Origin: Nilaparvata lugens
Taxonomy: Eukaryota > Arthropoda > Insecta > Hemiptera > Delphacidae
Assembly: GCF_014356525.2 (NCBI RefSeq)
Contig: NC_052505.1
Location: 46,483,844 to 46,547,843 of the forward strand
Direction: 5' to 3'
Length of the DNA stretch: 64,000 bases
Shown here: in pieces, positions 152 through 60,531 of the stretch
How the letters are laid out: each line of letters begins with the position of its first letter
Position numbering within the stretch: the stretch's first letter is position 1
Position numbers and translations under genes: made by a program
The notes under the pieces: generated by a model
The model's database searches: none
Seen by the model: the letters and a program-made list of their open reading frames with translations, nothing else
What the model was told of the DNA's origin: nothing

Positions 152-1046
152 ACTTTCCTTGCCCTATACCATAGGTAAGGAAAGTATTGATTTCCAAAAA
201 AAATTAAGGTACCCCAATTTCAAGTTTTCTATACGTTTCAAGGTCCCCTGAGTCCAAAAACATGATTTTTGGGTGTTGGTCTGTGTGTGTGTATGTGTAT
301 GTGTGTGTATGTGTGTGTATGTGTGTATGTCTGTGAACACGATAACTCCATTCCTAATTAACCGATTGACTTGAAATTTTAAACTTAAGGTCCTTATACC
401 ATAAGGATCCGACAGTAAGAAATTCAATCAAATTCAATTTAAGATGGCGGAAAAAATGGCGGATAATTACTAAAAAACCATGTTTTTCACGTTTTTCTCG
501 AAAACGACTCTAACAATTTTTTTCAAATTTATACCATGGATAGCTATTTATAAGCCCTATCAACTGACATGAGTCTCATTCCTGGGAAAATTGCAGGAGC
601 TCCGTAATGTTCTTGAGAAAAATGGCAGATAATTACCAAAAAACCATGTTTTTCACAATTCTCTCAAATATAACTTGACCGATTTTTTTTAAAATACATA
701 CCCTGTATAGTTATTTATCAGCTCTATCAACTGGCATGAGTCTCCTTTCTGGGAAACCAATGGGGGGGTTCACCCCATCCTTGAGAAATGGACTCAGTAA
801 CCTCCTTCTCGTGCATGAGGTAGGTAGGTAGCGCAGTTCATAAAAATAACACATAGTGGAGATATTTCATCTGTAGAACAGCTGTTTTTACGACATTAGA
901 AAATGACGACTAAAAAAAATCATCGAATTTCACAATTCACACAAAGAAAAAGTTCTCTGAAAACAATTATATATACACATATATACAGAAGTCTGATCGT
1001 AGTTTCAAATATGAGCAAGGAAAGTTGTGTGAGTGTACCACACCAG
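152..1046 (+). repeat. Dispersed repeat family D, copy without an ORF
   Basis: It begins ACTTTCCTTGC and the inverse word GCAAGGAAAGT occurs at 1015-1025, giving an 11-bp inverted pair. Near the start is a small hairpin (CTTTCCTT...AAGGAAAG around a CCTATACCATAGG core). A TG-rich microsatellite follows at about 280-335, then several lines rich in 'aagatggcgg' and 'aaaacggctc'-type words. The same sequence recurs at 29717-29857, where it is interrupted, and at 39204-43453, where it forms a tandem array in which two units carry a peptidase ORF. No ORF is supportable in this copy. The short frames over the TG stretch are low-complexity artefacts. Confidence 0.7.
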
Positions 1047-1076
1047 ATTTTTTCAATTTCTATCATATTATTTTGT

Positions 1077-27165: not shown

Positions 27166-29716
27166 AGTAGCATACGCGTAATATTAATGATACAAATTAT
27201 GATGGCAGTAGCTATGTCGTTGGTATTATTGATTTAACAAAATTTGAATTCTGATTCTGAATCATTTACCCATACGGCGAAACCTATGAAGTACTATGGA
27301 TTCACGTAGGCCTACAGCGTAATAATTATAGGAAAACAGCTTAATGTTCCTTTTCCAAAGATAATATAACAGTGGGCTCCACTGGGATTCTTATTCAAAT
27401 TGAAAAAAAATTCTGTAGGTAGCTTCAAAATAATTTTGGTCTGCCATCTTCGTTCCGCCACATTGAATCAAAAATTTTCTACGGGGAGGTTTTAATTTAA
27501 TACAAGATTCAAATAAAAAAGAATTTCAAGAGACAATGAATCGTGGAAATCGCTCAATATATCAAACCGTTTCAAAGATATTCACATTTTAGTGTTGAAG
27601 TTTTTGGATATCTTTGATACAGAAATATGGCTCGCCTAGAACAGGATAGATTATTCATCACATATTCTTATCATTATCGTTCCCTAGCAACCTATTTTAA
27701 GCGTTTATATATTAGCTGCTGAGAGAGATTTATGTGATAGATATACCTGAATAATACTATTAAATACTATATTCGACTAAACAACGAGTGACCCAAATGA
27801 AGCGATTCAAATATAAAAAAAAGAAAAATGGGAATGCGAAAAATATTATAATATTTGGAACTCCATAACTTATCATTTGATTGAGAGACATGTATGGGAT
27901 TATTAATTTATTGAACACTAATAATTTAGCAATATTGCACTAATAGTTTCAATTTTAGATGACTCTCTCCTGGATTATTGAGTTATGTGTTGGATATTCC
28001 TCAGTGATTACTGCATCATCTGAGAAAACTCCGTAAAAGTGATATCTGTTCGAAATTAACAGAATGCTCAAGTATAGACATTTAGGAGAAAACAAACATT
28101 TCATTTAATGTTCATTGAAATCGACCACATCAGTATTATTTACACGTGAATTACCGGTAGTGTATTGTTAATGTATTAATATTTGATAAGATAATATGAG
28201 CATCTTATTGGTTTTTCTCTCAATGATTGAAATGAATGGCTTAATTGCTTTTATATAATCATGAAAATTTCACAGTTCGTTACATTCCAGTACAATTATC
28301 TTGTTTCACAATCAATTTCTAAGTAGAGCTCATAAGTGTCGTAATCTTGCCATACAATTACCATACAATAATTGAAGTTGATTTCATTCAACTTCAGTGG
28401 TGCCATTTCACCAAACTGCTAAAAGGGGTGGGGGGCAAAAACCAAGAGGTATTGGTGGGGGGAGGAATACCCCCAAAGGATAGAGGGACCTGGGTTTTTC
28501 CCCATAAATGTTACATTAGAAGATGTTATTATATGCTTCATTTTTTATAATTTTATACAAAATGTGGTTGAAGTATCAATACAAACATATACATTATTAG
28601 TTATTAAATTCAATCATGGAATATTTATTAGAAATATGGGTCTACAGAGAGGCCCTAGAGTAGGAATACACTGAAACAGATTTCTTAAAAATCATGGAAA
28701 AAGATACATTTTTCTTTTACAAACTCAATTTCAACAATTCCATTGGGGATGATATTCTAATTGGAGAATAACTTTCAGTCAGAAAGCTAAAGATACATCA
28801 AGCTGTTCCCATAATTCTCAACAACCCTTTACATAAATTTTTGATTTTCTGATTGTGCCCTTTCTTTTGCTTTCACTGTGATATCTTGCAACTTGTTAAT
28901 TCTCACATTGAAATTTATTCAATAACTCACTCATTGTGCTCTGATCAATAAGTGTACCCATTCTGTATTCAAACTATACCACAGAGGAAAATATATTATT
29001 TATTACTCTGTACCCGTATCCATACTTTCAAGGCAATTTTGCTACATTGTTGATACTGTAGAAGGAATTATACTACTGCTGATAAAGAAAAGTATTAAAT
29101 CATTATGAGACTCTAAGGATTCGTGTAGATAGACCCGCATTTTCATTATTTATCTGATCCTTGAGGGGGGCCTAGGCCCCCTAGGTAAGTAAGCTAAGTA
29201 AGAATTAATATTGATATTTTTATAATACAGTACACCTGAAGAATTGGCAAAGTTTATGGTAAGGGGTGAGGAGGTACTCAGCTCTTCCAACTAACATCGG
29301 ATTAGTTTTGTGCAGTCTACTATAACAGACGTTCCCATATGGATGTTACTATAGACGTATTTATCATCGTATTCAATTTCTGTTTGTTAGTTTGTTTGTA
29401 TGTCTGATGGAAATCGAAAACGGCTCTAACGATTTTGATTAAGTTTGAAATATGGTATATAGTTTGAAATATAGAGTTTGTGATACGAAAACCATCATTT
29501 GGATTAGGACTCATGTTTAGGATAACTCACTGAGGGAACTTAAAAATGATTAGGTACGGTAATAATATTCATCAACCGAGTAGCAGCTGACTGAGAGAGT
29601 TTTCCGTCGTCAGTTGAAAACAGTTGATCAAGAGAGTTTTTCATCGTCAGTTGAAAATAGCTGATCGAGAGAGTTTGACAGATGTGTTGAGTCACCAAGT
29701 TTGTTCCTCATTTTTA

Positions 29717-29857
29717 CTTTCCTTGCCCTATTACCATAGGTAAGGAGAGTATTGCTTCCCGAAAAAAATTAAGGTACCCCAATTTCTAAATTTCTATACG
29801 TTTCAAGGTCTCCTGAGTCCAAAAAACTGGTTTTTGGGTATTGGTCTGTATGTGTTC
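29717..29857 (+). repeat. Start of repeat family D unit, split by LTR element
   Basis: The sequence matches 152-290, including the ACTTTCCTTGC start and the small hairpin, and ends in 'ttgggtattggtctgtatgtg'. The unit resumes with the TG microsatellite at 39206. The 9.3-kb LTR element therefore inserted into this unit. Confidence 0.8.
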
Positions 29858-31865
29858 TGACGTTATTCTTTATATTTAAATAACGATTAGCCTCCTGCTT
29901 GGCATCAGTCGGTAAAGCATGAGATATTTGATATAATCATATAATTAGGTCGTGGTTTTTTAATAGGATTCAGTCTCATAAAAATCTTTCTAGGCCTAGG
30001 TATGGGCTTCTCCTATAACTCTTGTAATTCAATAAAAATAAATATATATAAATATGATACTTATACTATAGTGTTGAGGAATAAAAATAAATTGCACACC
30101 ATAAACATATCATACATATATTAAACAATAATGCAAAAGAAAATAGATCAAGGCAAAAAAATATATAAAGAGCGATAAAAAATATAATATAAAAATAGAA
30201 CAATAATTTAAATCAGTAAAATATCACAGGCTAAACTTTATATTCTAGATTTATGGCGCGAATCATTACCATGTGCCTTTATCTTAAAATTCATATGCAT
30301 CCTTTGGCATGTAGCTGCGATATGCTCTTGTTAATACTTGTTGACTTGGACAATTCAATTAAAAAATAGGTTCTTTAAGATCAACTTGATAAATTAGCCA
30401 CTAATAATCCAAATATATATATATATATTAAAATCTCTAGTACTTAGTAGATTTCTTTGTATCGAATATATATTTTATCTCAGGGTGCAAGATTCGGCAC
30501 CTGACGGAATAGGTAGAGCCATTCATCTAGTGAATTAGAGCTATAACAAACTATCGCAAATTATATTGCAAAAATTAAATATCATATGCATATGTTTTAA
30601 TAGCCTAGATTTTATACTTCTTTGATCCAAATGGAATTTTCTGGAATGTATTGATCTATATTTTTTCTTCAATAAAATACCTTTAATACTAATTTTACTT
30701 GCGCAAGTATTTCTCTTATTAATTTCTTAACTTATAATAAAAACCCTTTCGGCGAGCTAGCTTTGATTATTAGATAGATTCGAAGCACTAGGGCGCCCAT
30801 CACTAATTCAATATTTATCACTCACGTGTCGAAAATCTTCTTGTAAGCCGCCGATGTCGATCCAACTCCATGTGGTCCTGGAATATGGTAGCCGGAATCG
30901 TCTCTTCCAAGGGGTTATAAATTTATTTGAAATTGAAAATGACTTCTGCTTTACAATAGCATCACGAAGTCTTTAAAGAAATTTAATAATTTGATTTAAC
31001 TTTAACTTTTACAAATTTATTAGCAAGGTACTACGCTCTAAAATATTTGGGGTCCTGTCATGGTGGCATTTGGCTGGCAAGTGCTGGTTCTCTTTTCTCA
31101 ATTTTACAAATCTTATTTCCGACTTTCAAATTAACATAAAATTTGAATATCTTAGTCCTCCGCCATTAAGGTTCAAATAGATCGTACAAAAAATATCAAA
31201 TTATTACTCAGGTTGTGCGTTTAATAATTTCTTTGCCTTCGAGCCATATCGATAACATAGACTTTACAATGTTTTTACACAAATCCAGTACATTTATATA
31301 AATATATAGAAATATTTTTGAATTGGCCTACAGTTGCCGCCTATTAACTGCCGTTTTGCTATTGGTGCATGCAAATTTTATTCGGTATTCATGCGCCTGG
31401 TACCTCCTATTTCCTGAATACACTTAATTATTTTTATTTGGTTTTTTGGTTATGCTCTCTACATGCTAGCTAATATTCTATACACTAATATTTATTTCAT
31501 GCTACCTAATAATTAGCCACGTGATCATGTGTTTTTTCACATTGCATACTGTTTGATTGCAATAGAGCTCTGCCAAGGGGTTTTGGTCAGATTCTACGTT
31601 GCTCGATTTGATCGATCTCTAGGTCACCAATCCCTGAATACATATACCTAACCTCAATCTTCAAAATATTTTATATAATAATATATTTCTTAGCAACAAA
31701 TTCCTTCAAATCCTTTTTAGGTTTTTGTACCGTTTAGCCAGAACAAGCTGATGCTATCTAATCTTAGTTATTATCTATTTGGCGATATTAGCCAGTTACT
31801 TTATTTTCAGACCTATTACTATTTCGGTTAGGGATTTTTATCTACCCAAATTCGATGCTTTACAT
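29858..31865 (-). repeat. 3' LTR (relative to coding strand)
   Basis: It differs from its partner at 37199-39203 by a small number of substitutions (for example 'cttggcatc' against 'cttagcatc') and a net 3 bp. Very AT-rich, with no internal ORF of note. Confidence 0.9.
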
Positions 31866-33861
31866 GCGCCCCTGGGTTTGAATTCAAAATATTTGGGAAT
31901 CACAATGTTTTTAATGAAAATCCACCCTTCAATACATCGATATATACTATACTTTATTTATAAATTATACTCTCAGACTTCTATCACAGTTCGCAGACAT
32001 ATCTGCTGCATCTCCTTTAGACCTCTATCAAATACAATAACAAATTCTCCTCCTCAACACACATAAAATATCATAAACATAATCTTCCAAACGCATTCCT
32101 CCTTACAAACACTTAAAACATAATATTTTTAAATTCGCCGCTCGCAGGGCCGCCAACCTAACTACACACATTTCATGATTCTCACAATTGATTCCTTTCA
32201 GACAATAATTTCGATTTACAAAACTTCTGGGCTTATATCTTATAATACTTCTTAGGTCTTAATATAAATAATTTTCTATACATCATGTACAACCTTTTCT
32301 TTTGCTAATGGCTCTTTGGTTTTTTGGTAGCTTGCATTCACTTTAGGTTTTTTCAGGTAACAAACGTGGCATAACTAAAGGTAATAAATATAAAACATAT
32401 GAATAAATATACCGACACTAATAAATATAATAAATAACAATAATAGATAACTTTTTGGGTACAGTACTTCTTTTTTATAATCATGTGTTTAACAGACGTT
32501 ACATTCATTTGATTCTGGTGGCTTTGGCCAGCTGACTGCTTGTTCTACGTTTTACATTGCTTACGTCAGAACTGGTTGTTGAGTCTTGCAAGTAACCTAG
32601 CTTCTACATTTTTCCTCTTTAAAGGTAATTAACAAATCTTAAATATTTTATCCCCGCTTGTGTCCTTTTTTATGTGATGTAACTTATTTAATTACATATT
32701 CAAAAATTACTCCCTTGCTTGTTGCAGGTTTTGATAGTTGGAAGGAAGCGAAAAATCTGATTTGTTGACACGAGGTGGCCTCACCAATATTAAATTTATT
32801 ACGAAAGGTTAGTAATTGGCTTGATAGTGGTGTTTTCTTTGATTTCTTATCATATTATTTCAAATTTTGTGATGTTGCATGTGGAAATGTTGTGATTTAC
32901 TTGCATCTTCTTGCATTCTGTTTGTAGATTGTTGCTGTAGGCCGTTCGGTTATCTGCTGTCCGGTTGTTGAGGCTGTCCTAATTGATAATTTATCTTCAT
33001 GAATATAAAGCCCCGGTATCTGGTATATCCTTTCAAACTATTCCAAGCTTCATTAATGGTAATACCTTTTAATCTGTTCTTTTCCCAATCATCCTGCAGT
33101 CTTAACTCGTCCTTCCTCTTATTTTTATCTAATATTCTTGATCTCGGTTCATTATAACTCATTATGCTCAAGACAATAAACATTTCAATAATATTAAATT
33201 TCCAATTATCAATAATAGATTCTTTCAATACCAGCAATACAATATTTTTCGCCACACTGCACAGAAAGCAGCTGTTTTCCAGTCCCTACGTAGATCTGAA
33301 AGACCTTGTTTGCAGACGACGTCAGAAAAGGGTTTCTTTTCCGGTCTAGGCCAGAAAGTTGTCTCTTTCCAGCCGCTTATGGCTGGAAACAACGCGCTAA
33401 TTATTATTAATAAGTCATCCGCTAGATCGGGCGAGTGTCCACTTTCATAATAAGCTGAAGTCGCCATGATTTTAGTTCCAGTTTCGAATCAAACTAATTC
33501 GCTTCGCAACCAGTTTTATTCAATTATTTATTGTTGATTAGTGCATTCCGAATTTCAAAAATGCTGAAGATGATTGTGGTATTCCAAGTGAAATTTTAAA
33601 AGAATCTGAAATCCTGACTGCAAATCTTCTACCACTAAAATCAAGAGATAGGTACGATAGCTTAACGAGTATTCTTTATTTTGTATTCTTTATTTATTTT
33701 GTCAGCAATACCTGTAGTGTGGCGAAAAATAACGTTCGCACCACGGGCAAAAATGTTTTTCCAGCTCTCAATCTTTTCTAGTCCTCGGCCTACGGCCTCG
33801 GACTTGAAAACCGATTTCGAGCTGGAAAAAATCTCATTTTCTGCTCTAGGTGCGAAATATA
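31866..33861 (-). other. Non-coding internal part of the LTR element
   Basis: Downstream of gag there is 2 kb without a recognisable pol gene. Within it, TTTTTCGCCACACTGC near 33247 and its inverse AGTGTGGCGAAAAATA near 33719 bracket about 490 bp. That block includes the self-complementary words 'ccagccgcttatggctgg' (near 33370) and 'cggcctacggcctcgg' (near 33785), suggesting a small nested element. Short frames at 33225-33467 and 33662-33925 are not recognised. Confidence 0.5.
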
Positions 33862-36666
33862 CTATTCCATCATATCTATAACACAGTCTTTTATCCATAT
33901 CACAACCATAACCAACATTACACACAATATCAAAACATTTATTATCTTTTTAATAGCATAATCTCTCATCATATAATAACTATTTCCTTCCATTTTATTT
34001 ATATTATTTTTCAATTCCTCCAATCTTATTAGCCACCGTCTGTTCTTTATTAGTCCATCTTCCATTTCCTTGTTGCCCATGCACGAATCCATAGTAGTCT
34101 TATCGGTTCCATTTTTAATATATTCATTCAATCCGTTTTTGTCACATTTCTTTAGCCCATTTTGCCAGTCACACCGCTGATTATCTGTTTTAAAACGTAT
34201 GTGCCGCGGATGCAGGTTGTCGGCTTCCTGTCTTCCTCGGTGCCGGTCCGGTGTCCTCCTCGGGCGTTTAAATCGTGCATGCGGCCGGTATGCGCGCACG
34301 TGGTTCCTCCTTCGTCGCTTCTTCCGCCTCCGGGCCTTGCGATGCATGTTCTTCATTCGGTCCTGTATGCTGTCCTCCTCGTCCTGATACCGGTCGGGTG
34401 TCCTCAGGCGCTTCCGTCTCCGGGCCTTGGTTTGCCGTGTGGTGGAATGATGCGCGGGTGTAGGCTCTGTGTGCGGATGCATGGTGGTGGTCAAAACAGG
34501 TAGTATAGTGGCGGTCTCCTCCTGGTGACTGTTTGGGTTTTCCGGCGGTGATTGGTCTTCGGTGGGAAACAGGATACTTAATATGGGTTGATGTTTGCGG
34601 GTTGTTTTAAGTGCATGGTGGGCGGCGTTTTTTAGTGGTAGGCTGTCTTGTATTGTTATATTAGGGGTATCATGTAGACATAGTTTATTAGCTGTAGTTT
34701 TCTGTATATCTGGTGGCGGGTCGTTGGGTGCTGGGTTCCAGGTTTTTTGTTGATTCAATCCTATTGCATGCGCTAATGTATAATTTGTGCTTACTTGTTG
34801 AGGTGGCGGTTTGTAATTTCTGTTGTAATTGTTCTGAGTGTGATTATTATTTGGGTTTAATCGATCACGGCCATCATAGTGATTCCTACGGTTGCTCTGC
34901 TGGGTATAGTGGTTGGTTGTGCGATTTTGAAATTTTTCATTATTCCAGTTACCATTTTGCCTGTGCTCATAGCGGCGTTCAAATTGAGGGGCAGATCGGT
35001 AGCGATCATATGATACCGGTTCATAATTTTGGCTGTTATACTGATTAAATTTTGAGTTATGTTGATTTTGTGCGTATCTCTGGTCTGAACGGTGGTTTGA
35101 TATTGCCATCACAGACTGTATGCCATATAAATGATTTATCAGCTGTTTGCAATCAGTAATGGGTTGTGTGGCGAGTGCCATTCTAACTTGATACGGTAGC
35201 TTCTTTAAAATAATACTTGCTAATGCCGATTCATTAATGGGCTTGCTCAATTGAGAATTTTTAAACTGTAGGGCAGTGACGAAAGTGGTACATGCACCGT
35301 CTAAGTTAGGGTTGAAATCGCATGATATAATGTCCGCTAGCACGTCCAACTGTTTACTTCTGCTCCAATACTGTTCCAGGAAGACAGCTACAAACTCATC
35401 CAATGATGTAAATTCATGTGCTCTACTCCGAAAGAACATCAGGGGTTCGCCAATCAATAAACTAGTCAAACGAAGACGCCACATGCTCCAAGAGGTAGGT
35501 GCAAGAGTTTGTACTAATTTTATCTGATCAATGAATGGTTGAGGTTGCAAATGGCGATCAGTATTATCAAATTTGCCCAGTCCTTGTAATATACTATGTG
35601 CGTTGAGGTTGTCTGTTTGAATCCCTTGAGGTCGTTGTTGAATATGATTTTCTAATGCTGTTATTTTTTCCTGTGTCATCTGCCATTGACTATTATGTGT
35701 AATTTTATTAGCAATTATTTCTTGATTTAATTGAGTCAGAGTGGATTTTTGAATTAGTAGAGTTCCGTTTAAGGCTTAACAGGTTTCTGTATTTTGATTG
35801 ATGCTACCTTGCAGTTGGTTCATTTTTGTGGACATATTAATCTGTTTATTTTGTGTTTCTTTAATACTGTTAAAATTTTTATCAACTGTAGTTGTTAAAT
35901 TTTGATTGGCAACGGTAATTTGTTTGTGGATTTCTTGATGGCAATCGGCCTTAATGTTATTGGTTATATCCTGAATGGGTGTAGTGATTTGTGTGGTTAG
36001 GTTATCTATCCTTTCGTTGAGTTCACAGGTAACCGTATCCAACCTTTCCGATAATCCTGCCTTAACTTTATCCTGACTTTCTTCCTGTAGAGTTATCATT
36101 GCTTTCAGCTCTTCCCTATGATTCTCTACTTTAGTCTCAATCTTATCCAACCGTCGTTCTACTGATTTTATAGCGCCTGCTGTTTCTTTCATGCCCTGTT
36201 CCACTGTTTCTTTATTTGCCTCTTTTATTGCAGCATTCTCTTTTTTAATCTCCTGCATCATATTATCCATTGTGTTTTGTCACATAATATTGAACATACT
36301 GCTAGTTTGTTCCATTATTACCTTTTGAAACGGATCTAACTCTGTGACTGAAAATATACTTTGCTTGCCCAGGTGTGACTCGGCCTCCAGCGATGCGGGT
36401 TCTGCAGGCTGCTCCTCGCCCCCTTCAAAGTTGATCTCTGCTATCCGTTGATTCAATGGTGTGTCAGCGGCGTCGATTCGAGTGGATGATAGAGGTTGCA
36501 GACCTTGTGGATCGAAGACTATCGACCCGACGCTTCCTGGTTCCCTTTCTTGTGGCGTATTGGCATCTACCGTGGTGGGGTTTGATGTGCTTGGAGTCGA
36601 CAAAGTGGGATCTGTGCAACCGCCGTACATATATGAAACTTCAGAGTTTGCGGGAGTGTGATTCAT
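33862..36666 (-). pseudogene. Gag-like polyprotein with two in-frame stops
   Basis: A single reading frame runs from ATG at 36666 to a stop at 33862, about 934 codons. It is interrupted only by TGA at 36280-36282 and TAA at 35776-35778, with no frameshift. Segment one (128 residues) is Pro/Thr/Glu-rich. Segment two (164 residues) is a long coiled coil rich in Lys, Glu, Ile and Asn. Segment three (605 residues from its first Met) has a capsid-like part (FIDQIKLVQTLAPTSWSMWR, then ALASIILKKLPYQVRMALAT). That is followed by an Asn/Gln/Tyr/Arg-rich region, an Arg-rich basic stretch (ARRRKKRRRR) and a hydrophobic C-terminal segment (INVLILCVMLVMVVIW). No CCHC knuckle is visible. It would package element RNA in virus-like particles. 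Both stops could be C-to-T changes or sites of readthrough. The length and the membrane-like end are unusual for Ty3/gypsy gag. Confidence 0.75.
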
Positions 36667-37198
36667 TGTGTCAAATATGATAAATGCTAATTAAAAAAGT
36701 GATAAAATGATAAGCGAAAATGCTTAAAAAAGAGACACAAACCGGGACTTACAGTGAAACAGTGATGTGCAGAGTGTTTGGATACTCATAGACAGGTATT
36801 TATACTTAAGTTTTTTATAATGCTCTAGCGCCCCCAATGTTTTGTTTTAATTCTTGGCTAGTTTACAGGCTGTGACTTATTTTCCAACCGGCTTAAATAC
36901 ATAATATATTCTTGACTAGAAAGTAATAGCAGTTTAGGCTTATAAAATATAATCTCTCTCTATAAACATATATTTTTTACAGTACTAATAATATAAAATT
37001 TTCTTTAAAACATATAATTTCTCTTTATTTAAAGCTATTGATTCCCCAAAAAGTAATACAAATTTTACTTCGCCTGTTTTCCTCAATACTCATATAAGTT
37101 ATCTATAATTTTCAATATGGTTATTGACTTAATTTCAAATAATTATTCAATGAGCTCGGCTCTCATCATCAGTCCCACGTTGGTACGGCATGTTTCTC

Positions 37199-39203
37199 TG
37201 ACGTTATTCTTTATATTTAAATAACGATTAGCCTCCTGCTTAGCATCAGTCGGTAAAGCAAGAGATATTTGATATAATCATATAATTAGGTCGTGGTTTT
37301 TTAATAGGATTCAGTCTCATAAAAATCTTTCCAGGCCTAGGTATGGGCTTCTCCTATAACTCTTGTAATTCAATAAAAATAAATATATATAAATATGATA
37401 CTTATACTATAGTGTTGAGGAATAAAAATAAATTGCACACCATAAACATATCATACATATATTAAACAATAATGCAAAAGAAAATAGATCGAGGCAAAAA
37501 AATATATAAAGAGCGATAAAAAATATAATATAAAAATAGAACAATAATTTAAATCAGTAAAATATCACAGGCTAAACTTTATATTCTAGATTTATGGCAC
37601 GAATCATTACCATGTGCCTTTATCTTAAAATTCATATGCATCCTTTGGCATGTAGCTGCGATATGCTCTTGTTAATACTTGTTGACTTGGACAATTCAAT
37701 TAAAAAATAGGTTCTTTAAGATCAACTTGATAAATTAGCCACTAATAATCCAAATATATATATATATATTAAAATCTCTAGTACTTAGTAGATTTCTTTG
37801 TATCGAATATATATTTTATCTCAGGGTGCAAGATTCGGCACCTGACGGAATAGGTAGAGCCATTCATCTAGTGAATTAGAGCTATAACAAACTATCGCAA
37901 ATTATATTGCAAAAATTAAATATCATATGCATATGTTTTAATAGCCTAGATTTTATACTTCTTTGATCCAAATGGAATTTTCTGAAATGTATTGATCTAT
38001 ATTTTTTCTTCAATAAAATACCTTTAATACTAATTTTACTTGCGCAAGTATTTCTCTTATTAATTTCTTAATTATAATAAAAACCCTTTCGGCGAGCTAG
38101 CTTTGATTATTAGATAGATTCGAAGCACTAGGGCGCCCATCACTAATTCAATATTTATCACTCACGTGTCGAAAATCTTCTTGTAAGCCGCCGATGTCGA
38201 TCCAACTCCATGTGGTCCTGGAATATGGTAGCCGGAATCGTCTCTTCCAAGGGGTTATAAATTTATTTGAAATTGAAAATGACTTCTGCTTTACAATAGC
38301 ATCACGAAGTCTTTAAGAAATTTAATAATTTGATTTAACTTTAACTTTTACAAATTTATTAGCAAGGTACTACGCTCTAAAATATTTGGGGTCCTCTCAT
38401 GGTGGCATTTGGCTGGCGAGTGCTGGTTCTCCTTTCTCAATTTTACAAATCTTATTTCCGACTTTCAAATTAACATAAAATTTGAATATCTTAGTCCTCC
38501 GCCATTTAGGTTCAAATAGATCGTACAAAAAATATCAAATTATTACTCAGGTTGTGCGTTTAATAATTTCTTTGCCTTCGAGCCATATCGATAACATAGA
38601 CTTTACAATGTTTTTACACAAATCCAGTACATTTATATAAATATATAGAAATATTTTTGAATTGGCCTACAGTTGCCGCCTATTAACTGCCGTTTTGCTA
38701 TTGGTGCATGCAAATTTTATTCGGTATTCATGCGCCTGGTACCTCCTATTTCCTGAATACACTTAATTATTTTTATTTGGTTTTTTGGTTATGCTCTCTA
38801 CATGCTAGCTAATATTCTATACACTAATATTTATTTCATGCTACCTAATAATTAGCCACGTGATCATGTGTTTTTTCACATTGCATACTGTTTGATTGCA
38901 ATAGAGCTCTGCCAAGGGGTTTTGGTCAGATTCTACGTTGCTCGATTTGATCGATCTCTAGGTCACCGATCCCTGAATACATATACCTAACCTCAATCTT
39001 CAAAATATTTTATATAATAATATATTTATTAGCAACAAATTCCTTCAAATCCTTTTTAGGTTTTTGTACCGTTTAGCCAGAACAAGCTGATGCTATCTAA
39101 TCTTAGTTATTATCTATTTGGCGATATTAGCCAGTTACTTTATTTTCAGACCTATTACTATTTCGGTTAGGGATTTTTATCTACCCAAATTCGATGCTTT
39201 ACA
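37199..39203 (-). repeat. 5' LTR (relative to coding strand)
   Basis: This is the partner of 29858-31865. On the minus strand it lies upstream of the gag frame, so it should hold the promoter. No TATA assignment is attempted because the sequence is AT-rich throughout. Confidence 0.9.
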
Positions 39204-39204
39204 C

Positions 39205-39245
<41 letters not shown>

Positions 39246-39972
39246 TGTGTGTGTGTGTGTGTGTTGTGTGTGTGTGTGTGTGTGTGTGTTTGTGTTTGTG
39301 TGTGTGTGTGTGTGTTGTGTGTGTGGTGTGTGTTGTGTGTGTGTGTGTGTGTATGTGTGTATGTGCGTCTGTGTAGGACACGATATCTCATCTCCCAATT
39401 AACGGATTGACTTGAAATTGAGAACTTAAGGTCCTTTCACTATAAGGATCCGGCGCGAACAATTTCGATCAAATGCAATTCAAAATGGCGGCTAAAATGG
39501 CGAGAAACAAAAACAGGGTTTTTTGTGATTTTCTCAGAAACGGCTCCAACGATTTTGATCAAATTCATAACCAAAATAGTCATCAATAAGCTCTATCAAC
39601 TGCTAGTCCCATATCTGTAAAAATTTCAGGAGCTTCGCCCCATCAATGCAGATAGATTCCCAATTATCAGGCTTCAGATACAATTGAAACAAAAAAAATC
39701 AACTGGAGTAGATTGAGCATGAAAATCTCTACAATTAATGTTTAGTAACATTTTCACCTAAAATTGAAAATAAGCTTTAAATTCGAGAAAATGTGATTAT
39801 TCAATTGCAAGTTGATTCTATCAAATCACTCACTATGAAGAGATAGCAGACCTCATGTGTGTCTCCAGCGTTATTGCCCTGTCACCAGCTGGCTCAAATC
39901 TTTGAATAGTAGACTTTAGATGCGCGGGAACACTAGCGTCAGGTGATGAATTTTCATAACGGCAAGGAAAGT
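39204..39972 (+). repeat. Family D array, unit 0 (no peptidase)
   Basis: It continues the unit begun at 29717: TG microsatellite (39206-39365), then the shared non-coding body to 'actatgaagagata' at about 39846. It then has a 46-bp segment found nowhere else in the array (starting GCAGACCTCATGTGTG), then the shared tail 'ctcaaatctttgaatagtag' and GCAAGGAAAGT at 39962-39972. Where units 1 and 2 carry the peptidase, this unit has the 46-bp segment. Confidence 0.85.
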
Positions 39973-40008
39973 TGTGTGAGTGCGCCACACCAGATTTTTG
40001 GGTATTGG

Positions 40009-40068
<60 letters not shown>

Positions 40069-41734
40069 AGTGTATGTGTACACGATATCTCATCACCCAA
40101 TAAACGGAATGACTTGAAATTTGGAACTTAAGGTCCTTCCCCTATAAGGATCCGACACGAACAATTTCGATCTAATGCAATTCAAGATGGCGGATAAAAT
40201 GGCCAAAATGTTGTCAAAAACAGGGTTTTCCGCGATTTACTCGAAAACGGCTCCAACGATTTTGATCAAATTTATACCTAAAATAGTCATTGATAAGCTT
40301 TATCAACTGCCACAAGTCCCATATCTGTAAAAATTCCAGGAGCTCCGCCCCATTTATGAAAAGTTTGATTTTGGATTCCCAATTATCAGGCTTCAGATAC
40401 AATCTAAGAAAAAAATTCCAATTGGAAAAGATTGAGCATGAATACAATTAATGTTCAGTAACATTTTCACCTAAAATTTTAAATAAGCTCGAAATTCGAG
40501 AAAATGTTATTATTTCAATTGCAAACAGTTCAACAAATGTTGATTCTATTAAATCATTCACTATGAAGAGATAAAATCGACGGCGAGCGCCCTGTGTTGG
40601 AGAGTGGTGGAGACGATGCTGAACTTCGGCGCGAGAACGAGTCATTAAGAAAACAATTGGCGCGCTTAAGGTGTGAGTGGGAGGCAGCTGTTGACCGCTC
40701 TATTCAAAATGAGTTGCTAGTGATGAGCATTTCTGAGAGGAGTGTAGTGGACAGCGCAGTGCAGACCGACAGCGATGCTTTGGAGGAAAATTCTTGTGGT
40801 GATCTCGCGGATAATAACTCTCAGGACTCGCCAGATTTCGTTTCAATGTCAAATCATATAAAATCTATTGAATATTATAAACAACAAAGTGAGAAACTGA
40901 AAAGTGACGTTGAAGAGTTGACAGCTGTCAACTCATCTTTAAATGAAGAACTGTTAAAACTCAATAAGACTGTTGATAGTTTGCTTCGAGTTGATAAAGA
41001 GAATGATGATCTTAAACTCAAGTTGAAATTATTAGTTGACAGAAAAAATGATCATTTTAGTAGTAGTGATAAATGGGTTGAGGATCATATAATTGCTGAC
41101 TATTTTAGTAGTTTCAATAATAGTGTAGGTTCAAATTTGAATTGTTTATTTTTCAGCCCTGCTATAGCTCAGCTACTCAAGGCTGGTACTGAAGAAAGTG
41201 TTAAGGACACAATCCTCAACTCTTCATATGCTGATTGTAAATTTGTATGTTTGTGTGTGAATAATGGTGATAATGTCGAAAGGCCTGATGATGGCAACCA
41301 TTGGTCCCTTCTATTCATTCACAGGGAGTGTCATACACATACAGCTAAAGCCTATCACTTCGACTCTATATTGGGCATAAATAATAAATCTGCTCTGAAA
41401 ATTGTAAATAATCTAAATATATCGGAGTCATGTTATATGGAAGTCCCCTGCATTCAGCAGAGGAACGGGTATGAATGTGGAATCAATGTTTTAATTAATG
41501 CAAAATTTATATTGAATTACTATTGTGTGCCTGGTATTGATGAACCTTTTTCTGATTGGTATATTGAGTCCATGAAGAATATTAATGTGAATAAGCAGAG
41601 TGCTGGAACTGCGCTTTTGACACCTCCTAGCTCTTCTCCTGTTCCATCCCCCTCACTCAAATCTTTGAATAGTAGACTTTAGATGCGCGGGAACACTAGC
41701 GTCAGGTGATGAATTTTCATAACGCAAGGAAAGT
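39973..41734 (+). repeat. Family D array, unit 1 (intact peptidase frame)
   Basis: The period is 1762 bp, measured between successive GCAAGGAAAGT words (39962 and 41724). Order: TG microsatellite (40009-40070), non-coding body, peptidase frame, shared tail. The junction lacks the first 130 bp of the full family D head. Tail sequence 'ccacaccaga' runs straight into 'tttttgggtattgg'. Confidence 0.9.
40594..41682 (+). CDS. C48-family (Ulp1/SENP-like) cysteine peptidase of a repeat element
   Basis: Ulp1/SENP peptidases cleave SUMO or related tags from proteins. The catalytic residues are visible by position: His236 in GNHWSLLFIH, Asp257 in AYHFDSI, Gln289 and Cys295 in QQRNGYECGINV, the Q-x-N-x-x-[DE]-C-G signature. 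The spacing is normal for the family. Residues 1-150 are charged coiled coil (LRRENESLRKQLARL; QSEKLKSDVEELTAVNSSL), which could oligomerise or bind a partner. The tail is Ser/Pro-rich. The open frame has no ATG before 40723. Numbering here counts from a GTG at 40594, and the frame is open back to 40567, so either translation starts at Met44 or an upstream exon is spliced in. It sits in a tandemly repeated element, not in a host-like gene context. Whether it is expressed is unknown. Confidence 0.85.
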   Translation: MLESGGDDAELRRENESLRKQLARLRCEWEAAVDRSIQNELLVMSISERSVVDSAVQTDSDALEENSCGDLADNNSQDSPDFVSMSNHIKSIEYYKQQSEKLKSDVEELTAVNSSLNEELLKLNKTVDSLLRVDKENDDLKLKLKLLVDRKNDHFSSSDKWVEDHIIADYFSSFNNSVGSNLNCLFFSPAIAQLLKAGTEESVKDTILNSSYADCKFVCLCVNNGDNVERPDDGNHWSLLFIHRECHTHTAKAYHFDSILGINNKSALKIVNNLNISESCYMEVPCIQQRNGYECGINVLINAKFILNYYCVPGIDEPFSDWYIESMKNINVNKQSAGTALLTPPSSSPVPSPSLKSLNSRL

Positions 41735-41769
41735 TGTGTGAGTGCGCCACACCAGATTTTTGGGTATTG

Positions 41770-41816
<47 letters not shown>

Positions 41817-41929
41817 GTGTGTGTGTGGTGTGTGTGTGTGTGTGTTGTGTGTGTGTGTGGTGTGTGTGTGTGTGTGTGTGTGTTGTGTGTGTGGTGTGTG
41901 TGTGTGTGTGTTGTGTGTGTGTGGTGTGT

Positions 41930-41963
<34 letters not shown>

Positions 41964-43453
41964 CGGAATGACTTGAAATTTGGAACTTAAGGTCCTTCCC
42001 CTATAAGGATCCGACACGAACAATTTCGATCTAATGCAATTCAAGATGGCGGATAAAATGGCCAAAATGTTGTCAAAAACAGGGTTTTCCGCGATTTACT
42101 CGAAAACGGCTCCAACGATTTTGATCAAATTTATACCTAAAATAGTCATTGATAAGCTTTATCAACTGCCACAAGTCCCATATCTGTAAAAATTCCAGGA
42201 GCTCCGCCCCATTTATGCAAAGTTTGATTTTGGATTCCCAATTATCAGGCTTCAGATACAATCTAAGAAAGAAAATTCCAATTGGAAAAGATTGAGCATG
42301 AATACAATTAATGTTCAGTAACATTTTCACCTAAAATTTTAAATAAGCTCGAAATTCGAGAAAATGTTATTATTTCAATTGCAAACAGTTTGACAACTGT
42401 TGATTCTATTAAATCATTCACTATGAAGAGATAAAATCGACGGCGAGCGCCCTGTGTTGGAGAGTGGTGGAGACGATGCTGAACTTCGGCGCGAGAACGA
42501 GTCATTAAGAAAACAATTGGCGCGCTTAAGGTGTGAGTGGGAGGCAGCTGTTGACCGCTCTATTCAAAAGAGTTGCTAGTGATGAGCATTTCTGAGAGGA
42601 GTGTAGTGGACAGCGCAGTGCAGACCGACAGCGATGCTTTGGAGGAAAATTCTTGTGGTGATCTCGCGGATAATAACTCTCAGGACTCGCCAGATTTCGT
42701 TTCAATGTCAAATCATATAAAATCTATTGAATATTATAAACAACAAAGTGAGAAACTGAAAAGTGACGTTGAAGAGTTGACAGCTGTCAACTCATCTTTA
42801 AATGAAGAACTGTTAAAACTCAATAAGACTGTTGATAGTTTGCTTCGAGTTGATAAAGAGAATGATGATCTTAAACTCAAGTTGAAATTATTAGTTGACA
42901 GAAAAAATGATCATTTTAGTAGTAGTGATGAATGGGTTGAGGATCATATAATTGCTGACTATTTTAGTAGTTTCAATAATAGTGTAGGTTCAAATTTGAA
43001 TTGTTTATTTTTCAGCCCTGCTATAACTCAGCTACTAAAGGCTGGTACTGAAGAAAGTGTTAAGGACACAATCCTCAACTCTTCATATGCTGATTGTAAA
43101 TTTGTATTTTTGTGTGTGAATAATGGTGATAATGTCGAAAGGCCTGATGATGGCAACCATTGGTCCCTTCTATTCATTCACAGGGAGTGTCATACTCATA
43201 CAGCTAAAGCCTATTCGACTCTATATTGGGCATAAATAATAAATCTGCTCTGAAAATTGTAAATAATCTAAATATATCGGAGTCATGTTATATGGAAGTC
43301 CCCTGCATTCAGCAGAGGAACGGGTATGAATGTGGAATCAATGTTTTAATTAATGCAAAATTTATATTGAATTACTATTGTGTGCCTGGTATTGATGAAC
43401 CTTTTTCGGATTGGTATATTGAGCTCATGAAGAATATTAATGTGAATGAATAG
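41735..43453 (+). repeat. Family D array, unit 2 (broken peptidase)
   Basis: The order is the same as unit 1, with a longer interrupted TG tract (41771-41961). Similarity to unit 1 stops near 43446, so the shared tail and GCAAGGAAAGT are absent and the array ends here. Confidence 0.9.
42454..43453 (+). pseudogene. C48 peptidase pseudogene (second copy)
   Basis: This copy is about 98 percent identical by eye to 40594-41593. One base is missing near 42570, which breaks the coiled-coil start. Five bases are missing near 43214, which remove the catalytic His-Phe-Asp neighbourhood and shift the frame. The Gln/Cys signature survives in another frame (43226-43453), and a stop follows VNE, ahead of where unit 1 has its Ser/Pro tail. 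It cannot make an active enzyme. Confidence 0.9.
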
Positions 43454-45696
43454 TATAAATTGAAAATATAGTATAAATGAAATATAAATATAATGGGGTA
43501 CCTTAGTCCTCCGACACACCCAGAACCTGACAGGAGTGGACAGCGACTATCTCATCCATCGACACCGTACGCCAGCGACAGGGAAAGACTGTTTTGAAAG
43601 AGTCTCGAATTGGCGTGTGCGTTAGGCGCCAAAACCGGACACTTTTACATCCGTACAGAAACGACAAAGTCAGACACATCAAATCTCTGACACTTCAAAA
43701 ACAAGACAGTCAGGTTATACTTCTTGGACGGACTGTACTACGCAGAGCTGACTGGTTTTCAAACAATGGTATTGTTCTGATGAATCCCCACATGTAGGCT
43801 ATTCTTAACAAGACCATGGACAATTTATTTCTGAAACCTATCACTCTTTTCTATCCCTCTTCGTAGTAATATCAGTCGATGACTTATCTTGTAACTGTAT
43901 AATTCCTATTTATCAGTCCTATATATATTTTATAAGTCCTATATATCATTCCTATTTTGTGCAGTTGTCTCTCTTTTCTGCAGTTATTTGGAGCTTAAAT
44001 AATAGAACTATTAGTAAATTTCATGACACAAAACAAAAATAGCTTCACTTAATAGGTCAATTGTCAAGATTAGTGAGTACACTGAAACTTCTCTATAATT
44101 CGTAGTTTTGTCATCAAAAACACTGTAATTAGTATTCCCATAAAGATAAATACACTAATATGCCATAGTAACTGATAACTCCAGTAATGAGTTCATCGAA
44201 AATTATGCTACAGTAACTAATAACTCCAGTGATGAGGAGACCGAAAATCACATCAACTGATGAAGTGAATTGGAAAAAAGGGTGTTGTGATTTATCATTA
44301 GTAAGCTGCATGCAATTACCACAATTTACCCATTTATCCATAACAGCTAATGCTATTCAAGAATAATCACATATACTGTCCTTAATGCCCCGAATTCAGC
44401 TGATTAATATACAAATTTTACATCAACTCGCTTTCGTTAATGTCTGTCTGCCTGTCTAGGTATTGTTTGTTTCCAACATAGCCTATATGTATTAGATAAT
44501 ACAACTTGTGATAGCAATACCTTTAACGTAATAGTAATTGGTATTATTAGTTTAGGGATTTTGAATTCTGATTGTTAATTATTTACCCATACGGAGTGAA
44601 CTTTAAAGTTCTATGGATTCACATATAATAATATAACTAGAGACACCCTTGGTTGAAGAACTCGCTCTTGAACAGTTGTATTGATCTCTGAAATCTTTTA
44701 CAAGTATGTCAAATCAATATTTAACAATATTTTCTAATATTCATTCATATAGGCTATATTATGAATTAATTATGGGCAAAGATGGGATCAGTATCAATGA
44801 TATAATTTTCTCGTATTTTGTTTTATCAGCCTCGATATTGCAGAGCTTGATATATAATTCGTCACCCTCCAAAATTCGTATTAAATGCTTGGTCCCGTAA
44901 GCTACAAATTATATAGGTTCTACTGTGTTGAATGTAGTCTAGGCCTACTGGAGGGTTAATTACTCGAACATTGAGAATTTTGAATATAATAAAATTATTC
45001 AGTATTGTTTTTCATTTTGAATGTCGTTTTCAATACTGGAAGATATACAGTTATCATTTCCCAAATAGCGGGAAAATGTTATTTTTTCATGATAATATTT
45101 TGATGATTGATTTTTCTACGTTTCAACGACGGGATTTGCTTTTGTCTGTATATGTATGTTGGCATGTTTGTAAATTAGCTTTTGATGATTACAGCTTGGC
45201 AATGCTCTCGGTTTTATTTATAACAGGTAATATTGTCATCGTCAATACACGCCAATCAGTCATTGGATGTTTTTCCGATGTCCGAAGGGCTAATTGAAGT
45301 GACATATTGACAATGAGATCTGTTTATAAATGCTGTACGAGGTCTACTGTTCACAGAACTACTAGCTACAAGTATTCAACTGCAGAAGTCGGAAATAGAC
45401 ATTTCATTTTACTCATGGAAGACACCCACCCTTATCTATCTACTTCACGTCTATGAAGATAACAATATCAAAGAAACAGAGTTGAAAGTACAAAGACATA
45501 GAGATGGAAATTTAGAAGTGAATGAATTGCTATAATTCAATTACTCAGGTATATCAAAACTGACTACTTTAGCATTTACCTGATTGATATTACCGCAATC
45601 ATTATGTTTTAAATTCAAATTTGCGTTGCGTTGCTGTCACTCGGCTGCTCTCTGCACCATTTTCTCGAATCATGCAATAACTTCAAAAAAATGACG
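43454..45696. other. Mixed non-coding DNA between array and right arm
   Basis: A 67-residue frame at 43594-43797 (KSLTLQKQDSQVILLGRTVL) has a protein-like composition but no recognised family. It could be a 3' exon of the neighbouring element. At 44160-44245 a ~45-bp unit 'taactccagtratgag' is duplicated. About 44440-44640 resembles the inverse-arm sequence near 27185-27320. Near 45340, 'gaggtctactgttcacagaactactag' recurs at 50243. The 108-residue frame at 44971-45297 is not recognised. Confidence 0.4.
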
Positions 45697-48600
45697 TCAA
45701 CAAACTTGGTGACTCAACACATCTGTCTCGTTTTCAACTGACAATGGCAAACTCTTTCGATCAGCTGTTTTCAACTGACGATGAAAAACTCTCTTGATCA
45801 ACTGTTTTTAACTGACGACGGAAAACTCTCTCAGTCAGCTGCTACTCGGTTGATGAATATTATTACCGTACCTAATCATTTTTAAGTTCCCTCAGTGAGT
45901 TATCCTAAACATGAGTCCTAATCCAAATGATGATTCTCGTATCACAAAATCTATATTTCAAACTATATACTATATTTCAAACTTAATCAAAATCGTTAGA
46001 GCCGTTTTCGATTTCCATCAGACATACAAACAAACTAACAAACAGAAATTGAATACGATGATAAATACGTCTATAGTAACATCCATATGGGAACGTCTGT
46101 TATAGTAGACTGCACAAAACTAATCCGATGTTAGTTGGAAGAGCTGAGTACCTCCTCACCCCTTACCATAAACTTTGCCAATTCTTCAGGTGTACTGTAT
46201 TATGAAAATATCAATATTAATTCTTACTTATAATCAGCTGCCTAGGGGGCCTAGGCCCCCCTCAAGGATCAGATAAATAATGAAAATGCAGGTCTATCTA
46301 CACGAATCCTCAGAGTCTCATAATGATTTAATACTTTTCTTTATCAGCAGTAGTATAATTCCTTCTACAGTATCAACAATGTAGCAAAATTGCCTTGAAA
46401 GTATCGGTAGAGAGTAATAAATAATATATTTTTCTCTGTGGTATAATTTGAATACAGAATGGGTACACTTATTGATCAGAGAACAATAAGTGAGTTATTG
46501 AATAAATTTCAATGTGAGAATTAACAAGTTGCAAGATGTCACAGTGAAAGCAAAAGAAAGGGCACAATCAGACAATCAAAAATGTATGTAAAGGGTTGTT
46601 GAGAATTAAGGAAACAGCTTGATGTATCTTGAGCTTTCTAACTGGAAGTTATTTTCCAATTAGAATATGATCCACAATGAAATTGTTGAAAATGTCATTG
46701 TAAAAGAAAAATGTATCTTTTTTCATGATTTTTAAGAAATCTGTTTCAGTGTATTCCTACTCTAGGGCCTCTCTGTAGACCCATATTTCTAATACCACAT
46801 TTGTATAAAATTGGAAAAAATGAAGCATATAATAACATCTTCTAATGTAACATTTATGGGGAAAAACCCAGGTTCCTCTATCCTTTGGGGGTATATTCCT
46901 CCCCCCCCCCCAATACCATTTGGTTTTACCCCCCCCCTTTAGCAGTTTGGTGAAATGGCACCACTGAAGTTGAATGAAATCAACTTGGTAATTGTATGGC
47001 AAAAGCAATTAAGCCATTCATTTCAATCATTGAGAGAAAAACCAATAAGATGCTCATATTATCTTCTCAAATCTTAATACATTAACAATACACTACCGGT
47101 AATTCACGTGTAAATAATACTAGATTTAAATGAACATTATGGTCGATTTAATGGTCGATTTAAATGAACATTAAATGAAATGTTTGTTTTCTTCTGAATG
47201 TCTATACTTGAGCATTCTGTTAATTTCGAACAGAGATCACTTTTACGGAGTTTTCTCAGATGATGCAGCATTCACTGAGGAATATCCAACACATAACTCA
47301 ATAATCCAGGAGAGAGTCATCTAAAATTAAAACTATTAGTGCAATATTGCTAAATTATTAGTGTTTTTCAATAAATTATTAATCCGATAAATGTCTCTTA
47401 ATTAAATGATAAGTTATGGAATTCCAAATATTATAATATTTTTCGCATTCCCATTTTTCTTTTTTTTATATTTGAATCGCTTCATTTGGGTCACTCGTTG
47501 TTTAGTCGAATATAGTATTTAATAGTATTATTCAGGTATATCTATCACATAAATCTCTCTCAGCAGCTACTATATAAACGCTTAAAATAGGTTGCTAGGG
47601 AACGATAATGATAAGAATATGTGATGAATAATCTATCCTGTTCTAGGCGAGCCATATTTCTGTATCAAAGATATCCAAAAACTTCAACACTAAAATGTGA
47701 ATATCTTTGAAACGGTTTGATATATTTATGAGCGATTTCCACCATTCATTGTCTCTTGAAATTCTTTATTATTCGAATCTTGTATTAAAACCTTCCCATA
47801 GAAAATTTTTGATTCAATGTGGCGGAACGAAGATGGCAGACCAAAATTATTTTGAAGCTACCTATAGAATTTTTTCAATTTGAATAAAATCCCAGTGGAG
47901 CCCACTGTTATATTATCTTTGGAAAAGGAACATTAAGCTGTTTTCCTATTAATATTACGCTGTAGGCCTAAGTGAATCCATAGGACTTCATAGGTTTCTC
48001 CGTATGGTTAAATGATTCAGAATCAGAATTCAAATTTTGTTAAATCAATAATACCAACGACATAGCAACTGCCATCACAATTTGTATCATTAATATTACG
48101 CGTATGCTACTGAAGGATAATAGTCAGGCAGACACACAGGAGCAAGTTATTTTGTCTCATGCAGTACTTTCAATGTTACTTTTATATCCTGAAAAAGGAC
48201 GAAGAAGTGAGTAAAATATTTTGTTGTTCAACGAACTTGACCTGTAAAAAGGTTCGAAGAGTGCGTGTTCAAAATTTGAAGCTGATCGATCAACTCTTTC
48301 TAAAGTTATTGTAGTGCATTCAAACAAACAAGCAAACCCACAGACTGGCAACAACTTTGAACTTGAGTAAAAAGTAAGAACTTGCTAACGCTCGTTCAAC
48401 AAATATTATTGAGAGAACAACGGGCGGTATTATCAAGTTGGGAGCACATAACTTGAAGGAGTAAAATTATTTCAGTGTAGGGGATTGTGTATTTCACAAG
48501 AGAGTGTGGTTCTGAGGGATATAGGCCTATAGTGAGAAAGTGAAGAAGTGAGGATTTAATTGAATTGCAGTTTTAGTTTTTTTTTGCACGGCCGGCCCTC

Positions 48601-59395: not shown

Positions 59396-59631
59396 TTAAT
59401 AAAAGTGAGAAAAAAAAATAAAAATCAATAAGTGAAAATTAAATTAAATTATTAGAAAAATAAAACAATAAACAAATCGAGTCTTACCTGTAGACTCCTA
59501 TCAACTAATTAATATTATAAAGGTATTCTCTATGTATGTTTATACTGAAAGAACTAAGATAAAATAAACAATACTTTTTGTATGAGATTCCTATCATGTA
59601 TATTATGTACAATAACAAATGCAACTACTGA

Positions 59632-60531
59632 TTACATATTGTTAAATATCTCGAGATCCTCATCTTTTACAACTCTTATCGCTGGAGATTCTGGTGTTTT
59701 TCGAATAAAAACTTTGCCTTCCCTAACCCATGCGAAAGCAATTTTTTTGTCTCTTTTCAATGATTTGGCTTTTCCCAACAGAATTTTATTCACTCTGGTC
59801 AAATGTTCATTGATATATATTATGTTGTCTGGTGAGAGACGAGCGTCTAGTGAAGTTGTAGTTAGCAGGTTACCTCTTCCTTTTGCTGCAGCCAACCATC
59901 TAAGTTTTGAAGATCTCGATACAAATTTGCATATTATTGGTTTGATAGATTTATTCCTGGTCGGTACCCTGTGAGCAATAGACACATCCTCGTCTTTGAA
60001 TGGAATGTCCAAAATGGTTGCAATGTTATTTAGTATACTGTAGACGTTTTCATTCTTGGTCACAGGAACACCCGAAATTTCAATATTGTCTATGCGCGAT
60101 CTTTGATTCAACTCATTTATTTCAAGCCGGTACTTATTATTTTCTGTTTTCAATTGTTCACAGTTCTCTTTAATTGTTTTATTTTCTACTCTAAGCTCAT
60201 CCATGGTTAGTTTCATATTACTTATTGTGTTAGTCAGAGTAGCGATTTCTTTTTTAAATTCCTTGAACTTACCGTCGATAAATTCTTTTAATGCTTTAAC
60301 AGTGTCCTCGGTATTTTCACTGGAATCACTAGAGTCATTCAAGCTTTCTTTTTTGGTCATGATACAATCCTCGCACTTCCAGGTCGCCTTACGTTGACCT
60401 AACTTACGAAGATTTTTGTTGTTTTTCAGTCTCGTACACTCCGGATGAAAGCAATTTTTGCATACACTACACTCAATATATTTGTTAGCACTTTCAAATT
60501 CTGAACTGCACTTAAAACAATTTTTCTCCAT
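59632..60531 (-). CDS. LINE ORF1: PHD-type zinc finger, coiled coil, Baculo_FP-like domain
   Basis: This 299-residue protein would bind element RNA as a chaperone. Residues about 4-57 carry a C4HC3 pattern (CFKCSSEF, CSVCKNCFHPEC, WKCEDC) like a PHD finger. Residues about 85-145 are coiled coil (LTMDELRVENKTIKENCEQL). Residues about 150-290 (IEISGVPVTKNENVYSIL, IAHRVPTRNK, ICKFVSRSSKLRWLAAAK) resemble the Baculo_FP-like nucleic-acid-binding domain found in many insect CR1/Jockey ORF1 proteins. The ATG at 60531 precedes the zinc finger directly. The frame is intact. Confidence 0.85.
   Translation of the reverse strand: MEKNCFKCSSEFESANKYIECSVCKNCFHPECTRLKNNKNLRKLGQRKATWKCEDCIMTKKESLNDSSDSSENTEDTVKALKEFIDGKFKEFKKEIATLTNTISNMKLTMDELRVENKTIKENCEQLKTENNKYRLEINELNQRSRIDNIEISGVPVTKNENVYSILNNIATILDIPFKDEDVSIAHRVPTRNKSIKPIICKFVSRSSKLRWLAAAKGRGNLLTTTSLDARLSPDNIIYINEHLTRVNKILLGKAKSLKRDKKIAFAWVREGKVFIRKTPESPAIRVVKDEDLEIFNNM

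Follow-up and report, generated by a model that had tools for sequence, protein, structure and literature searches.

An apparent peptidase cassette in the planthopper Nilaparvata lugens is probably nested mobile-element wreckage that includes a piece of a LINE ORF1

How does a peptidase frame of the C48 (Ulp1) type come to lie within short, head-to-tail repeats? The question is raised by positions 39204-43453 of a 64-kb stretch of the Nilaparvata lugens genome (G000 C2:46483844-46547843; assembly of 1.085 Gb), the whole of which is referred to as the window. Three repeat copies (units 1, 2 and 3) are present there with TG tracts of 69-188 bp flanking them, as a preliminary description made from the letters alone had stated, and a C48 frame occurs in units 2 and 3 and none in unit 1. 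That description took the array for a series of units of about 1.76 kb, two of them with a peptidase frame, and thought of a little-described element or of a peptidase cassette amplified like a satellite. The 1.76-kb period exists, but it comprises only two copies (39893-41655 and 41656-43447), which are unequal, and unit 1, besides lacking the peptidase, belongs to a different subfamily (A), its body and tail being 90.6% identical to those of unit 2 (9.4% differing); unit 2 and unit 3 are 97% identical, and a copy elsewhere on the same contig matches unit 1 at 95.5%. We consider it very likely that the locus is nested mobile-element wreckage, consisting of a pile-up of HINEs (non-autonomous Helentrons), a fragment of a long interspersed nuclear element (LINE) and a single duplication. 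Its parts, in window coordinates, are as follows.

152..1047 (+): solitary relative of the HINE copies, both ends present, T-runs on either flank
29711..29852 (+): 5' head of unit 1, with T-run, subterminal inverted repeat (subTIR) ACTTTCCTTGC at 29716, hairpin and internal T-run TTTTTGGGTATTGG at 29831
29853..39203 (-): insertion in the TG tract of unit 1, resembling a long terminal repeat (LTR) retrotransposon, class tentative
39204..39994 (+): remainder of unit 1, with TG tract, non-coding body, 3' tail with subTIR GCAAGGAAAGT (39962) and short 3' inverted repeat
39893..41655 (+): tandem duplication, copy 1, with unit 1 tail, T-run junction, TG tract, subfamily-B HINE body and LINE open reading frame 1 (ORF1) piece
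39982..40008 (+): head-to-tail junction GCGCCACACCAGATTTTTGGGTATTGG, which occurs a second time at 41744-41770
40573..41659 (+): piece from within LINE ORF1, covering its coiled coil and C48 peptidase, with the frame open over 40567-41682
41656..43447 (+): tandem duplication, copy 2, truncated at its right end
42434..43447 (+): LINE ORF1 piece, second copy, its frame interrupted by deletions of 1 nt and 4 nt

The origin of the peptidase is indicated by copies that lie elsewhere in the genome. A search with the peptidase-bearing unit, for which 40 of 7125 candidates were scored, gave matches to unit positions 599-1687 outside any HINE context on contigs C7, C3, C4 and C14, and partly on C5. The first four are LINE copies that have a common 3' end, a TTTGACTT-type tail and differing 5' ends; those on C3 and C7 are open (ORF1 of 791 and 722 amino acids (aa), respectively, and ORF2 of 983 aa in both), whereas those on C4 and C14 have broken frames, and the C14 copy is split by an insert. 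In the C3 copy, Pfam reports FLYWCH (2.5e-07), C48 (2.4e-06), Exo_endo_phos (1.9e-11) and RVT_1 (9.1e-30), together with a single-sequence esterase match on ORF1 that is below the cut-off (0.073). A profile built from six ORF1 sequences, two of which are nearly identical, matched SENP8 at 1.2e-18 and, over the esterase end, the LINE ORF1-encoded protein 4c1b at 4.6e-4; we take 4c1b to be the ZfL2-1 esterase. Because the window piece differs from the C3 and C7 copies at only 9 of 1087 positions (99.2% identity), and these copies have an ORF1 and an endonuclease-reverse transcriptase (RT) ORF2, the window peptidase is, judged by sequence, an internal piece of a LINE ORF1. The fear expressed at the outset, that the peptidase copies might be fragments of a known larger transposon with a transposase next to Ulp1, was nearly borne out: a LINE with endonuclease and RT beside a peptidase-bearing ORF1 exists, but no paper describing it was found. 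The neighboring frame of this source element is an endonuclease-RT and not the transposase of a DNA transposon with a Ulp1 passenger. Over the piece, two of the LINE copies differ by 9 synonymous and 14 nonsynonymous changes (ratio of nonsynonymous to synonymous rates, 0.39, which is weak evidence), and the top relative of ORF2 is from Graphocephala atropunctata (56%).

The assignment to C48 itself was upheld by profile search, both by Pfam (PF02902, 7e-05, 23.2 bits against a cut-off of 20.7) and by matches in the PDB to NopD (7.8e-13, and 3.5e-13 for an entry named type III effector) and SENP8 (1.3e-08); among solved structures, NopD and SENP8 are the nearest to the window domain by sequence. 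The frame of unit 2 (40567-41682) is open over 371 aa, and all four catalytic residues claimed for it are present, as His245, Asp266, Gln298 and Cys304 in a numbering that exceeds the earlier one by 9 and in agreement with the NopD alignment. The second of the two frames originally reported fared less well: in unit 3, the 1-nt and 4-nt deletions end it early, at 226 aa. The annotated N. lugens gene model LOC120352353 is 98% identical to the window peptidase over 84% of the frame and corresponds to the LINE ORF1 on C7. A homologue search with the peptidase piece alone returned one protein, probably because full ORF1 relatives exceed the length limits. The peptidase would act, if anywhere, within the LINE ORF1 protein, with its predicted FLYWCH finger, coiled coil, C48 domain and SGNH esterase.

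The left HINE-LINE joint (GAAGAGATA/AAATCGAC), which has 3 bp of microhomology (ATA), has two matches in the genome at no more than one mismatch, both exact and both in the window units; the reversed pattern as control gave five matches, which is the chance level at one mismatch. This distribution speaks against a new peptidase-bearing element. The LINE pieces of units 2 and 3 have three common substitutions that are missing from the four LINE copies compared, so that both descend from one joint. The tail of unit 2 matches that of unit 1 in 99 of 101 columns, whereas other copies reach at most 95 of 101-102 (the L025_2 tail (56), interrupted by other sequence, is excluded), and both tails contain TTTAGATG, which is absent from the 11 other tails printed. 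Between the two duplication copies, the tail and junction agree in 116/117 columns and the LINE piece in 1006/1014, gap columns aside, a difference of about 1%; the subfamily-B body agrees in 471/494, a figure that takes in poorly aligned columns at the TG tract. CTCA, a 4-bp microhomology, stands at 39893 and again at 41656. Since the tail of unit 2 is a copy of the tail of unit 1, we read the 1.76-kb period as the trace of a single tandem duplication. The simplest history that the sequences allow is one event of about 1.76 kb that ran from the CTCA of the unit 1 tail as far as the CTCA of the LINE piece; what looked like the right end of a cassette is then a breakpoint of that duplication. 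The left joint may mark where a LINE, truncated at its 5' end, was inserted, and such ends often show microhomology (PMC4245944); it may equally be a deletion joint.

These comparisons also bear on gene capture, by which a HINE would have taken up the LINE ORF1 fragment as a passenger during rolling-circle replication. Helentrons reportedly take up fragments of genes (PMC4067079), and microhomology is found at both joints (3 and 4 bp). We initially favored this explanation and dropped it once the unit 2 tail was found to match that of unit 1. The left joint is confined to two adjacent units and no mobilized copy was seen, and the right joint, being followed by the tail of unit 1, coincides with a local tandem-duplication breakpoint; capture now appears improbable.

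The anatomy of the carrier, judged from its sequence, fits a HINE, that is, a non-autonomous, DINE-1-like Helentron. Eight copies were compared, the solitary one at 152-1047 and seven from elsewhere in the genome, including one composite of 1959 bp (L022) and omitting L019, which is the same place as L007. All eight have the order T-run, ACTTTCCTTGC, 5' inverted repeat, TG tract, body, GCAAGGAAAGT, short 3' inverted repeat and T-run. By eye, the 11-bp subTIRs are exact at 7/8 five-prime ends (one copy has a mismatch in ACTTTCCTTGC) and 8/8 three-prime ends, and T-runs stand at both boundaries in all eight copies shown. The 5' hairpin is far more stable than shuffled sequences (z -6.12), and a 5-bp stem, GTGTG..CACAC, is present in both 3' ends that were folded, though with an energy no better than that of shuffles. 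The suggestion that the carrier is a short repeat family which also exists without the peptidase, with 152-1046 as one such relative, is confirmed: exact copies of its 35-nt head number 10,681 genome-wide (control, 0). A search of the viral collection with the tail pattern gave no matches. The carrier shares with the HINEs and DINE-1-like elements described in PMC4067079 its 11-bp subTIRs, a 5' inverted repeat, a microsatellite, a short palindrome at the 3' end, insertion in T-rich sequence bounded by T-runs, and very high copy number. The window differs from that description in that no autonomous partner could be linked and that the LINE piece is apparently a local accident and not general cargo.

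The head-to-tail layout of the array is not peculiar to the window. The junction GCGCCACACCAGATTTTTGGGTATTGG has 47 matches in the genome (21 exact and 26 with one mismatch; 0 for the reversed-pattern control), of which two are inside the window and 45 outside it on many contigs. Five junction sites, including the window and together holding 8 of the 47 matches, were inspected. At L031, a whole HINE lies inside the internal T-run of another HINE with the head of the host stacked upstream, an arrangement that is self-insertion. Self-insertion is known for Helitron2-type elements, and the Fusarium composites described in PMC5148889 have stacked 5' ends like those at L031; here, by contrast, one internal T-run is reused, which makes the junctions fall at the same position each time, and there is only one head in the window array. 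At L032 the head is partial. L033 (G000 C2:45389200-45394400) is a four-unit HINE array in which identity is 94-97% between neighbors and 89.6% between the outer copies; this gradation may record stepwise exchange. The recurrence of the junction also bears on a tandem layout produced by misassembly across the TG tracts, as do the length of the tracts (69-188 bp) and the difference of only about 1% between the copies in tail and LINE piece, both of which would favor an artefact. The 45 matches to the junction elsewhere, spread over many contigs, the private differences between the two copies and their different right ends make it very unlikely. Least credible of all is a satellite-like amplification. 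Two peptidase units do lie head to tail at 97% identity, in its favor, but they are all that the joint pattern finds genome-wide, in agreement with the unit search (40 of 7125 candidates scored), and unit 1 is of another subfamily and unit 3 is broken.

Several observations weigh against the reading of the locus as a HINE pile-up with a LINE fragment and one duplication. A single head is found in the arrays at L025 (two copies) and L033 (four copies) and in the window itself, where no stacked subfamily-B head lies upstream of the unit 1 head at 29711; plain self-insertion therefore does not explain every array, and in single-head arrays one of two adjacent direct-repeat heads could have been lost, or rolling-circle replication could have read through. 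In both ends folded, the 3' stem-loop is no better than in shuffles (z 0.03 and -0.76). PF14214 (Helitron_like_N) has 69 matches in the genome, from which 10 distinct Rep/helicase places were examined in two sets, one place being in both: the subTIR at up to one substitution occurs in 0/5 loci of 9.9 kb and 0/6 loci of 3.5 kb, no autonomous partner sharing the HINE ends was found among the 10, and no endonuclease domain was found in the five Rep/helicase frames scanned. As to the joints, the 3' part of the LINE and the tail of the subfamily-B copy are missing, so that a LINE insertion and a deletion joint would look alike, and gene conversion between tails could mimic the signal of a duplication.

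The sequence of events that would account for the wreckage has four steps. HINEs are non-autonomous rolling-circle elements that insert in T-runs, and the structure has the 3' end of one abutting the internal T-run TTTTTGGGTATTGG of another, unit 1 (subfamily A) being placed in this way against a subfamily-B copy. Next, the B body would have become joined at ATA to the middle of LINE ORF1, either through insertion of a LINE copy, probably truncated at its 5' end, or through a deletion. On the evidence of sequence identity, a CTCA-based tandem duplication would then have copied the unit 1 tail, the junction, the B body and the LINE piece. Finally, an element tentatively classed as LTR-type split unit 1, and small deletions broke the frame of unit 3.

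The split of unit 1 is marked by a repeat: 37180-39203 matches 29841-31864 at 99.06% over 2026 bp and ends exactly where the unit 1 TG tract starts, and the unit 1 head ends at the opposite side of the 29853-39203 insertion. The loss of this head, considered as an explanation, was ruled out when it was located at 29711. Between the direct repeats of about 2.0 kb (about 29853-31864 and 37190-39203) are minus-strand frames of 637, 167 and 136 aa; Pfam gave no match above cut-off in the insertion, and no target-site duplication was seen at it. From this layout, the insertion is tentatively an LTR-type element. The array is bracketed by an inverted repeat (28920-29715 and 45687-46500; 93.5%, extent limited by the query), within which 37-bp tandem repeats lie in opposite orientation (29594-29676 and 45730-45841). 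Elsewhere in the window, 56516-60537 (-) is a nearly intact LINE of a type that differs from the peptidase source, with PHD-like and Baculo_FP domains in ORF1 and RVT_1 in an ORF2 of 959 aa; 5773-7397 is transposase-like and pogo-like, with a Psq-type helix-turn-helix followed by DDE_1 in two overlapping frames; and 11623-12222 (-) and 14117-14707 (+) are near-identical frames of 199 and 196 aa, integrase-like by eye, as if part of a retroelement had been inverted or duplicated.

The source LINE has relatives. A search with full ORF1 returned five proteins from 7998 candidates scored. P0002, a metagenome protein of 875 aa, can be aligned with the FLYWCH region, and Pfam scores its C48 above and its SGNH below the cut-off. 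In P0004, C48 comes with a weak esterase match (0.15); in P0005, the esterase is present and C48 falls just short of its cut-off; and P0003 has FLYWCH and an esterase match below the cut-off, without C48. We infer that P0002-P0005 belong to LINEs. A search of the planthopper genome with P0002, in which 52 of 2184 candidates were scored, gave 53 matches. A further LINE there (L054:560-5883; G000 C9:39381759-39387082) has an ORF1 with FLYWCH (2.8e-07) and C48 (3.6e-10), which aligns to the ORF1 of the first LINE through the esterase end, where Pfam reports no esterase; its ORF2 is only 28% identical to that of the first LINE. The His/Asp/Gln/Cys order of C48, read by eye, is also present in P0002, P0004, P0005 and the L054 ORF1. 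By eye, the first ~60 aligned residues of the two planthopper ORF1s are far more alike than the rest, and this similarity at the FLYWCH end suggests an exchange of ORF1 domains. A third LINE, L053:802-5242, has FLYWCH and, by alignment only, an esterase-like end, without C48. On this sequence evidence, two LINE families in the genome encode C48 together with an esterase-like ORF1 end, and, since L054 has C48 and L053 does not, C48 is a module of some of these LINEs. The viral collection yielded 14 stretches with the pattern of the ORF1 alignment, none of which was confirmed.

Two kinds of known LINE resemble these elements. Type IV (esterase) ORF1s of CR1, L2 and RTEX elements, including ZfL2-1, have a coiled coil and a C-terminal SGNH esterase before an APE-RT ORF2, and some also bear a zinc finger or leucine zipper (PMC3905857, PMC4120745). 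The likeness of the planthopper ORF1 to this type includes the profile match to 4c1b; what it adds is a FLYWCH finger at the N-terminus and a C48 peptidase. Esterase LINEs occur over many animal phyla, and in 2013 the esterase ORF1s in Repbase were said to be without an RNA recognition motif or other structural RNA-binding domain (PMC3905857). NeSL and Utopia LINEs likewise have a Ulp1-like protease, which in PMC4640811 is N-terminal in the protein with RT and restriction-like endonuclease, whereas here it is in the separate ORF1 of an APE-type LINE. Literature searches found no paper on the combination of FLYWCH, C48 and esterase in an ORF1; Repbase was outside the search, and novelty is therefore provisional. 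It is conceivable, though we advance it tentatively, that the planthopper LINEs and their probable relatives elsewhere form a group with a new ORF1, comprising FLYWCH, coiled coil, an active C48 domain (SENP8/NopD-like) and SGNH esterase, in which domains were swapped between families (similar FLYWCH ends, divergent C48 and ORF2) and C48 processes ORF1 or strips SUMO or NEDD8 from host restriction factors. Within the element's own cycle, C48 might trim the ORF1 protein or remove ubiquitin-like tags in ribonucleoprotein assembly.

The apparent peptidase cassette would thus be what a pile-up of rolling-circle elements and a single duplication left behind; its sequence is real and its cause ordinary, and it serves as a warning for the annotation of such loci. 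The value of the finding lies in the source LINEs. The function of ORF1 in esterase-type LINEs is unsettled, and why a retrotransposon should combine a protease of the deSUMOylating or deNEDDylating type with an esterase and a zinc finger is a testable question.

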